Positions 30,574 to 45,929 of a DNA stretch of 64,000 bases are shown here, one piece after another. This stretch comes from Pachyseris speciosa (taxonomy: Eukaryota; Cnidaria; Anthozoa; Scleractinia; Pachyseridae). The notes under the pieces are model-generated. The model did not search any database. It saw only the letters and a program-made list of their open reading frames with translations, and had not been told where the DNA came from. The position numbers and the translations under genes were made by a program. The DNA lies in assembly GCA_016490735.1 (NCBI GenBank), contig JAEMWC010000056.1:47501-111500 (forward strand), read 5' to 3'. Numbering within the stretch: position 1 is the stretch's first letter; each line of letters begins with the position of its first letter.

Positions 30574-30834
30574 AATATTTCCTCGAGAAATTATGCTTGC
30601 AATAGACGGAGAAAGTAATTTACTGCCACAAAATCTATTGAAGTGACGTTAAGTTTCACCTCAAAGGAACAAATTCGCTAATTTTACAAACAACCTTTGC
30701 GACTAACTTCAAACGCCAAAGATTTTGAACGAAAGCGGGAACTCTAAATAGCGTCATGTAAGTTAAACAAATTGTACCTCTTGACTTTGTCACGTGACTT
30801 AATTTTCATTTTCATAATTTTTTTCCTTTGGGGA
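30574..30834. promoter_or_regulatory. RAD51 5' flank with palindromic E-box
   Basis: This is the short segment between the RAD51 ATG and the 15-kb element. GTCACGTGAC at 30789-30798 is a perfect CACGTG palindrome that fits the CLEAR/USF-type E-box consensus. CCTTTGGGGA at 30825-30834 recurs at 45920-45929 on the far side of the element. Before the insertion this would have been part of a region shared with VPS54. Confidence 0.55.
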
Positions 30835-30878
30835 GGCATATAATTCATGTTAACACACATATAGTCACCCGGACATCC

Positions 30879-33800
30879 TTAGTATACCCTAGTATACACT
30901 TATAAACTCTAGTATACCCTTATGAACCCTAGTATACCCCTATATACCCTGGTATACCCCTATAAACCCTAGTATACCCTATATACCCTTCTTAAACACC
31001 TAGTATACTCCTATAAACCCCAAGTATACCCTAGCAAACCTGATATACCCTTATAAACCCTACTATACCTTTTAAACTGTAGTATACCCTTATAAACCCA
31101 AGTATACCTTGGCAAACCCTGGTATACCCTTATAAACCCTAGTATACCCTTTTAAACCCCTAGTATACCCTTATACACCCTAGTATACCCTAGTAAACCC
31201 TGGTATACTCCTATAAACCCTAGTATACCCTAGTAAAACCCTAGCATACTCCTATAAACCCAAGTATACCCAAGCAAACCCGGTATAACCCTTTAAACCC
31301 TAGTATCCCCTTTTAAACTCTAATACACCCTTATAAACCCAAGTACACCCTAGCAAACCCTGGTATACCCTTATAAACCCTAGTATACCCTAGTAAACCC
31401 TGGTATACTCCTATAAACCCTAGTATACCCTAGTAAACCCTAGCATACTCCTAAAACCCAAGTATACCCTAGCAAACTTGGTATACCTTATAAACCCTAG
31501 TATCCCCTTTTAAACTCTAAATTACCCTTATAAACCCAAGTACACCCTAGCAAACCCTGGTATACCCTTATAAACCCTAGTATCCCCTTTTAAACTCTAG
31601 TATACCCTTATAACCCTAGTATACCCTAGCAAACCCTGGTATACCCTTATAAACCCTAGTATACCTTATAAACCCTGGTATACCCTTATAAACCCTAGTA
31701 TACCCTATAAACCCTAGCATACTCCTATAAACCCTAGTATAACCCTTATAAACCCTAGCATACTCCTATAAACCCTAGTATACCCTAGCAAACCCTGGTA
31801 TACCTTTTAAACCCTTGTTTACCCTTTTTAAACTCTAGTATACCCTTATAAACCCTAGTATACCCTAGCAAACCCTGGTATACCCTTATAAACCCTAGTA
31901 TACCCTTATAAACCCTAGTATAGCCTTAAACACCCTAGTAAACCCTGGTATACTCCTATAAACCCAAGTATACCCTAAGCAAACCTTGGTACACCCTTAT
32001 AAACCCTAGTATACCCTTTTAAACTCCAGTATACCCTTATAAACCCAAGTATCCTAGCAACCCTGGATATACTTATAACCCTAGTATACCCTTCTAAATT
32101 CTAGTATACCCTTATAAACCCAAGTATACCCTAGCAAACCCTGGTATACCCTTATAAACCCTACTATACCTTTTAAACTCTAGTATATACCTTATAAACC
32201 CTAGCATACCCTTATAAACCCTATCATACTCCTATAAATCCTAGTATACCCTAGTAAACCCTAATATACCCTTATAAACCCTAATTTCCCCTGATACACC
32301 CCTGTATACCACTATGAACCCCAGTATACCCTAGTAACCCTGGTACACTCCTATAAACCCTAGTATACCCTAGTAAACCCTAGTATCTCCTATAAACCCA
32401 GTATACCCTAGCAAACCCTGGTATACCCTTATAAACCCTTGTTTACCCTTTTAAACTCTAGTATACCCTTATAAACCCAAGTATATCCTAGCAAACCCTG
32501 GTATACCCTTAAACCCTAGTATACCCTAGTATACCCTTATAAACCCCAGTATACCGTTGTAAACCCCAGTGTACCCTTATACACCCTAGTATACCCTAGT
32601 AATACCGTTGTAAACCCCAGTGTACCCTTATACACCTAGTATACCCTAGTAACCCTAGTATACTCCTATAAACCCTAGCATACCCTAGCAAACCCTGGTA
32701 TTACCCTTATAAACCTAGTATCCCCTTTAAACTCTAGTATACCCTTATAAACCAAGTATACCATAGCAAACCCTGGTATACCCTTTAAACCCTAGTATCC
32801 CCTAGTATACCCTAGTAACCCTGGTATACTCCTATAACCCTAGTATACCCTAGTAAACCCTTAGCATACTCCTATAAACCCAAGTATACCGAAGCAAACC
32901 CTGGTATACCCCTTATAAACCCTGTGTTACCCTTTTAAACTCTAGTATACCCTTATAAACCCAAGTATATTAGCAAACCCTGGTATACCCTTATAAACCC
33001 TAGTATACCCTGATATACCTTATAAACCCCAGTATACCGTTGTAAACCACAGTGTAACCTTATACACCCTAGCATATACCCTAGTAAACCCTAGTATACT
33101 CCTATAAACCTAGCATACCCTAGCAAACCCTGGTATACCCTTATAAACCCTAGCATCCCTAGTATACCCTAGTAAACCCTAGTATACTCTTAAACCCTAG
33201 CATACCCTAGCAAACCCTGGTATACCCTTATAAACCCTAGTATCCCCTTTTAAACTCTAGTATACCCTAATAAACCCAAGTATACCCTAGCAACCCTGGT
33301 ATACCCTTATAACCCTAGTATCCCCTAGTATACCCTAGTAAACCCTGGTATACTCCTATAACCCTAGTATACCCTAGTAAACCTAGCATACTCCTATAAA
33401 CCCAAGTATACCAAGCAAAACCTGGTATACCCTTATAAACCCTACAATACCCTTTTAAACTCTAGTATACCCTTTTAAACCCTAGTATACCCTTATAACC
33501 CTAGTATACTCCTATAAACCCTAGTATACCCTAGTAAACCCTAATATACCCTTATAAACCCTAAGTTCCCCTGATACACCCCTGTATACAACTATGAACC
33601 CCAGTATACCCTAGTAAACCCTGGTATACTCCTATAAACCCTAGTATACCCTAGTAAACCCTAGTATGCTCCTATAAACCCAAGTATACCCTAGCAAACC
33701 CAGGTATACCCTTATAAACCCAAGTATACCCTAGCAAACCTTGGTATACCCTTAAAAACCCTAGTATACTCTTTTAAACTCCAGTATACCTTATAAACCC

Positions 33801-45300: not shown

Positions 45301-45880
45301 TATACTAGAGTTTATAAGGGTATCCTAGGGTTTATAAGAGTATACAGGGTTTATAAGGGTATACTAGGGTCTATAAGGGTATACCAGGGTTTATAGGGGT
45401 ATACTAGGGTTTATAAGGGTATACTAGGGTTTATAAGGGTATACCAGGGTTTACTAGGGTATACTAGGGTTTATAAGGGTATACTAGGGTTTATAAGGGT
45501 ATACCAGAGTTTATAAGGGTATACCAGGGTTTATAGGGGTATACTAGGGTTTATAAGGGTATACCATGGTTTATAGGGGTATACTAGGGTTTGTAAGGGT
45601 ATACCAGGGTTTATAGGGGTATACTAGGGTTTATAAGGGTATACTAGGGTTTATAAGGGTATATTAGGGTTTATAAGGGTATACTAGGTTTTATAAGGAT
45701 ATACCAGGGTTTATAGGTGTATACCAGGGTTTATAGGGGTATACTAGGGTTTATAGGGGTATACCAGGGTTTAAAGGGGTATACTAGGGTTTATAAAGGT
45801 ATACTAGGGTGTATAGGGGTGTACCAGGGTTTATAGGGGTATACTAGGGTTTATAAGGGTATACTAGGGTATACTAAGGA
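42330..45880. repeat. Right minisatellite array, inverted relative to the left (unit TTATAAGGGTATACTAGGGT)
   Basis: About 3.5 kb of the exact complement of the left-array unit. Bases 42330-42720 are strongly diverged. From about 42730 outwards the units are regular, with few single-base losses. Higher-order repeats are obvious: blocks containing TTATATGCGTATACC recur at about 43285 and 43465, and blocks containing TTGAGTTTAAAAGGGTATAC near 43794, 44112 and 44292. The G-rich strand has GGG every 10 bases. Confidence 0.97.
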
Positions 45881-45929
45881 TGTCCGGGTGACTATATGTG
45901 TGTTAACATGAATTACTTGCCTTTGGGGA

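Follow-up and report, generated by a model that had tools for sequence, protein, structure and literature searches.

A 15-kb foldback-type DNA transposon with minisatellite arms between the RAD51 and predicted VPS54 genes of Pachyseris speciosa, probably mobilized by an IS256/Mutator-like transposase

Results

It is probable that the insertion between the RAD51 and predicted VPS54 genes in the window (the whole stretch of 64,000 nucleotides analysed here, C56:47501-111500 of a 983.7-Mb assembly that was searched genome-wide) is a 15,087-bp copy of a foldback-type DNA transposon family, a copy that was inserted with an 8-bp duplication, that another contig lacks at this position and that is likely mobilized in trans by the IS256/Mutator-like transposase of fuller copies. 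The reading as a whole is rated no higher than probable because it includes the placement of the enzyme with IS256/Mutator, for which a rival of some weight exists.

Structure of the element

The element occupies positions 30835-45921 of the window; its parts are listed in Table 1. In a self-comparison of the window, with one end turned over, 54 of the 56 positions of the terminal repeats are identical, bearing out the inverted unique ends of the original prediction, and the 29-base core of this repeat occurs exactly twice in the window when up to three mismatches are allowed (0.00 expected from shuffling). The inverted arrays of 20-bp units, predicted at about 6.5 and 3.5 kb, are also found; the right one is homogeneous from 42727 and has a degenerate inner edge (42335-42726). 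The predicted direct repeat, CCTTTGGGGA, is indeed present at both 30825-30834 and 45920-45929. Of its 10 bp, only 8 are target-site duplication, because the CC before the right-hand TTTGGGGA is the element's own end (...TTGCC), as other copies show.

Table 1. Features of the element and its target site, in window coordinates
Feature	Position	Strand	Description
Left target-site duplication	30827-30834	none	8 bp, TTTGGGGA; one copy in the C1075 empty site
Left terminal inverted repeat	30835-30890	+	56 bp, 'TA' type end, GGCATATAA...
Left arm	30877-37352	+	head-to-tail repeats of CCTTATAAACCCTAGTATAC; 334 units when parsed over 30879-37352
Interior	37353-42334	+	98.9-99.2% identity with the interiors of C131b and C39
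Two palindromic (MITE-like) stretches	37359-38142	none	37359-37594 and 37596-38142; self-comparison
Transposase gene remnant	39851-40292	+	spread over two frames; corresponds to residues 12-159 of homologue P0073, the N-terminal DUF6729 part
Dead LINE fragment	40286-42325	+	reverse transcriptase with a frame break near 41400 and an (ATT)n tail; directly contiguous with the transposase remnant
Right arm	42335-45879	-	inverted CCTTATAAACCCTAGTATAC array; 179 units in the 42335-45879 parse
Right terminal inverted repeat	45866-45921	-	56 bp, 'AG' type end, ...TTACTTGCC
Right target-site duplication	45922-45929	none	8 bp, TTTGGGGA; exact match to the left one

The LINE fragment of the interior has a reverse-transcriptase match of 3.4e-32. 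It is common to 14 of the 15 compared copies (the exception, C159, is mostly N there), and its frame break is identical in the window and in the seven copies with ORFs listed. The LINE reverse transcriptase was rejected as the mover of the element on account of this shared fragment, the shared frame break and the presence of DNA-transposon ends and duplications. At 39870-41402, deletion puts the transposase N-terminus in frame with the LINE reverse transcriptase, and the resulting predicted ORF of 510 aa (544 aa in C131b) may be a chance DUF6729-RT fusion or something expressed.

The transposase-like gene and its superfamily

Homologues of the gene whose remnant lies in the interior combine DUF6729 (identified in homologue P0073), a DDE core and an OTU protease. 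IS256/Mutator transposases carry a C/D-x-x-H motif between the second D and the E, and the D and H of an LDxFH-type motif are present in all 42 homologues. When the predicted fold of the DDE core is compared with known structures, both aligners rank ISCth4 first by a clear margin; this transposase of the IS256 family is not known to have an OTU domain or foldback arms. The Foldseek TM-scores to this bacterial enzyme (Protein Data Bank entries: 6xgx and 6xg8) are modest, being 0.36 and 0.54, and the sequence identity is 11-13%. The predicted IS256-type fold of the RNase-H-like DDE core, the D/H motif and the 8-bp duplication are the IS256/Mutator features found, and from the predicted structure the family is likely to have an IS256/Mutator-like transposase.

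The rival that survives best, although we consider it unlikely, is that the transposase belongs to another superfamily with duplications of about 8 bp, either ISL3-like, KDZ/Zisupton or P. ISL3 is the commonest of the weak profile matches of the DDE core (13 of the 42 homologues), Transposase_mut being found for 5 (best E 0.00017) and MULE for 4 (best E 0.0078); the Mutator and ISL3 matches are all weak or below the Pfam cut-offs. The 8-bp duplication is also a KDZ (Zisupton, Dileera) feature, such duplications being reported for Zisupton, but a KDZ name, as judged by family names, is absent from the 22 Pfam families listed for the 42 homologues. The P-element transposase also appears in the Foldseek results (E 2.2e-4), but at rank 6 and well below ISCth4, and the P-element superfamily was set aside. 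It is the lead of ISCth4 in both aligners that argues against these other superfamilies and for IS256/Mutator. hAT was set aside on the general features of that superfamily.

A C-terminal OTU protease in a cnidarian transposase is also described for Ginger1, present in Hydra (PMC2836005). The duplications of Ginger1, however, are 4 bp and of CCGG type, its termini are TGTNR and its core resembles a Gypsy integrase, unlike the element described here, with its 8-bp duplications and GGCA termini.

An empty site in the same assembly

The element sits between the RAD51 start codon (complement, 30571-30573) and the predicted VPS54 start codon (46381-46383), which without the insert would be about 712 bp apart, close to the 710 bp originally estimated. 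The RAD51 assignment draws on an HHH_5 profile match, a sub-cutoff Rad51 match and motifs typical of RAD51, whereas the other neighbour is a putative VPS54; Pfam gives no match for four of the ORFs of the predicted VPS54, nor for the ORF with the predicted start.

A search for an allele with an empty site had been proposed, and such a site is found on C1075 of the same assembly, with the same neighbours. This contig runs uninterrupted from the RAD51 side into the VPS54 side with a single TTTGGGGA, and none of the three end and unit strings is found in the 3.4 kb of C1075 around this point. C56 and C1075 are 95.5% identical to the left of the site (1,595 alignment columns) and 98.8% identical to its right (816 columns). 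The simplest reading of these sequences is that C56 and C1075 are two haplotypes of one individual, which would make the insertion young enough to be polymorphic. It is improbable that C1075 is instead a paralogue in which the element was never inserted. The identity values are on the low side for alleles and there are further size differences between the two contigs, but two probes, one on each side of the insertion (the 415 bases left of the element, and 57358-57760), match only C56 and C1075, and on the VPS54 side about 11.8 kb of C56 is collinear with 7.5 kb of C1075. Under both readings, the site is seen once without the insert.

Several other features are seen in this region. The RAD51 exons have single-base frame breaks at 30510-30514 and near 29680, and C1075 has an extra C in exon 1; the RAD51 frame breaks are likely consensus errors, and indels in this assembly need care. 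Within RAD51, a 736-bp stretch with inverted ends (28558-29294) is missing from C1075. On the other side of the element, C56 and C1075 diverge immediately after 46732, a stretch of about 500 bp (46782-47284) recurs in inverted orientation at 49302-49799 with 92% identity, and an interstitial telomere-like (CCTAAC)n array with 67% matches is present at 48642-48789.

Copies of the family and the gene that they carry

The boundaries of the element are also boundaries of similarity elsewhere in the genome. With a probe consisting of the left end preceded by 10 bases of left flank, such that probe base 11 is the first base of the element, 38 of the 40 matches listed (of 76 candidates) start at probe bases 9-11, corresponding to 30833-30835, and thus at the first base of the element or at most two bases before it. 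Of the remaining two, one is the window's own sequence and the other is C195, where the flank by chance resembles that of the window. The inner 26 bases of the end occur 80 times genome-wide with at most two mismatches (39 forward and 41 reverse, 60 of them exact), and their reversed control does not occur in the same assembly. These 80 ends form 29 facing pairs within 20 kb, spanning 9.3-17.3 kb, and leave 22 ends unpaired.

All 29 pairs were read, and 27 are flanked by exact 8-bp duplications; these are present at each of the first 20 pairs, where all are different, and at 7 of the further 9. C211 has 7 of 8 letters in common, and C1682, where there is no duplication, is perhaps a recombinant. 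Other copies with different duplications, as envisaged in the original prediction, are therefore at hand. Both ends were typed in 20 elements; 19 combine a GGCATA end with a GGCAAG end, and C123 has two GGCATA ends. On C40, facing ends at 1577091+ and 1609593- are 32.5 kb apart, and may belong either to one giant copy into which other elements have inserted or to a pair of broken copies. The data show that the window element is one copy of a dispersed family of mobile DNA.

The transposase-like gene gives 97 scored matches of 166 candidates in this genome. Matches of at most 53% identity were taken as other families and left out of the count, and those of at least 74% identity come from 20 contigs, of which C177 and C221 give 74-81% and the other 18 at least 90%. 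Every one of these 20 contigs carries element ends; in 15 the gene lies between paired ends and in 5 there is one end within 9.3 kb. The pieces retained differ between copies: residues 12-159 in the window, C131b, C39, C64, C1035 and C406, residues 99-159 in C1046, residues 12-371 in C589 and residues 117-620 in C218 and C1052. In C211, whose ends are 16.0 kb apart, all three domains are present, with frame breaks, between an array and the LINE. No gene pieces were found in C123, C131a, C195, C2151 and C317, nor in C159 (mostly N), and none of the 12 loci read, which extend only 1.5 kb past the match, shows a transposase that is both full-length and unbroken.

From this distribution it is likely that the transposase-like gene belongs to the element family. 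The alternative, that the DDE/OTU gene is a second transposon nested in some copies of a foldback family moved by an unrelated enzyme, would agree with the several copies without the gene and with interiors that contain palindromic elements and a LINE, but it is very unlikely: foldback ends accompany the gene on all 20 contigs, on both sides in 15, the 8-bp duplication fits an IS256-type enzyme, and the pieces retained by the window, C218, C589 and C211 differ but overlap and keep a common order, as deletion within one ancestral gene would produce. With the gene assigned to the family, we conclude from these sequence comparisons that the window copy is probably an internal-deletion derivative, which would need transposase from elsewhere. 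The original prediction of a giant, probably non-autonomous DNA transposon holds as regards mobility, given the copies, duplications and empty site, but the family is not merely non-autonomous and likely carries its own transposase gene. The idea of a local inverted duplication or minisatellite expansion that is not mobile, suggested by the large inverted tandem arrays visible in the window alone and by the related 10-bp-unit minisatellites that seem to exist on other contigs, is refuted beyond reasonable doubt by the 80 genomic ends, the exact duplications in 27 of the 29 pairs and the empty site with its single TTTGGGGA.

The minisatellite arms

The 20-bp unit CCTTATAAACCCTAGTATAC consists of two related 10-bp halves, with GGG roughly every 10 bases on the G-rich strand; non-overlapping G3N1-7 motifs number 95 in the arms versus 2 in the 48.9 kb of the window outside the element. 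Both inverted arrays are present in 14 of the 15 other copies examined, the C317 stretch covering one arm only. The left arm is 6.47 kb in the window, 2.37 kb in C39 and 1.89 kb in C131b, despite interiors that are 98.9-99.2% identical, and length therefore changes much faster than sequence. The 16 left-type arms measured range from 1.0 to 6.5 kb, that of the window being the longest and the second being 3.9 kb. Such changes would fit unequal exchange, slippage or gap repair.

The left arm of the window has 4.4 indels per 100 bp versus 1.1 for the right arm. Deletions amount to 3.8% in the left-type arm of C218 and 3.6% in that of C1052, as many as in the window, and to 1.3% in C39 and 0.7% in C131b. 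The excess of single-base deletions in the left arm of the window may be noise, decay or both, and the exact length of this arm is uncertain, because its many single-base indels and the frame breaks in the nearby RAD51 exons suggest assembly noise.

Discussion

Drosophila FB is a foldback element with long inverted ends that consist largely of internal tandem repeats. The same build, with an outer unique part and a variable middle, is found in the element described here and in Tetris (PMC4079207). The assignment to the foldback-type class is made by structure, from the long inverted tandem-repeat ends and an 8-bp duplication, which is within the 8-10 bp of Tetris and Tm1. The arms of Tetris reach 1.7 kb and are made of repeats of about 220 bp, its duplications are 8-10 bp and no transposase was found for it in that study, which also associates Mutator-like enzymes with most foldback elements (PMC4079207); here, the arms reach 6.5 kb, consist of a 20-bp minisatellite, and a transposase gene is present inside copies. 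Tm1 of root-knot nematodes (PMC3169594) shares foldback ends with many short repeats (about 14 bp in Tm1), outermost motifs that differ between the two ends and, in one element, a Mutator-type (Phantom) transposase, but it has 9-bp duplications, unlike the 8-bp duplications, 20-bp units and DUF6729-DDE-OTU protein seen here. Galileo (PMC3573991) differs by its 7-bp duplications, a transposase of the P superfamily and shorter arms (up to about 1.26 kb). In some of its subfamilies, tandem repeats change in number independently in each arm, and secondary transposase-binding sites are reported there. In short, the build is that of a foldback element and the enzyme is likely IS256/Mutator-like.

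It is possible to picture the transposition of this family as follows. The DDE enzyme would bind the GGCA...TGCC ends, would perhaps also use the 10/20-bp repeats as serial binding sites, a proposal taken from the Galileo work (PMC3573991), and would excise the element and insert it into an 8-bp staggered target. The arms would grow and shrink by the processes named above, outpacing the divergence of the interior. In the window copy, an internal deletion would have fused transposase residue ~159 to the passenger LINE fragment, so that this copy could not move by itself.

A broader proposal is put forward tentatively, as somewhat more apt to fail than to hold: that these elements form a distinct eukaryotic DNA transposon lineage, whose IS256-fold transposase bears DUF6729 at its N-terminus and an OTU deubiquitinase domain at its C-terminus and whose ends have expanded into minisatellites of kilobase length, with the arrays serving as serial, helically phased transposase-binding platforms, and that the lineage generates new minisatellites in cnidarian genomes and has been jumping recently enough to be polymorphic. 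In the literature collection searched, the word DUF6729 was not found, no relevant paper on coral foldback transposons was found as judged by title and start of abstract, and the same search gave no paper on sea urchin TU elements or on ISL3 together with Zisupton. What sets this element apart is the length of the minisatellite arms (up to 6.5 kb, where Tetris reaches 1.7 kb and Galileo about 1.26 kb), the DUF6729-DDE-OTU protein and the presence of an occupied and an empty site in one assembly.

Among the foldback elements compared here, the enzyme is frequently lacking, as in Tetris, or known from just one copy, as in Tm1, and the origin of tandem-repeat arms is an open question. In the present genome there are dozens of copies whose duplications are intact, with left-type arms of 1-6.5 kb and different pieces of the transposase gene, as well as an occupied and an empty site. 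How the arms grow, how minisatellites are born and what the OTU domain does can therefore be tested directly. Because the short intergenic region between RAD51 and VPS54 is interrupted by the insertion on one contig, it also provides a natural test of promoter effects.

Related repeats are found outside this genome. The element ends and array unit have no matches in viral_contigs, and the 10-bp-unit pattern is found in one viral_contigs stretch (3.5 copies) and in 16 bacterial stretches in genome_contigs; the eight of these 17 stretches that were viewed are arrays of related 10-bp units. When the translation of the array is compared with a protein database, 24 proteins are retrieved (P0001-P0024), many of which have a 10-residue repeat. 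As a lead, these 10-residue repeats may encode a 10-bp minisatellite, GGGTATACAA/T, a putative relative of the element's half-unit. Arrays of 10-bp units like GGGTTTATGA are seen in a Saprospiraceae MAG (JABWBR01) and in other MAGs.
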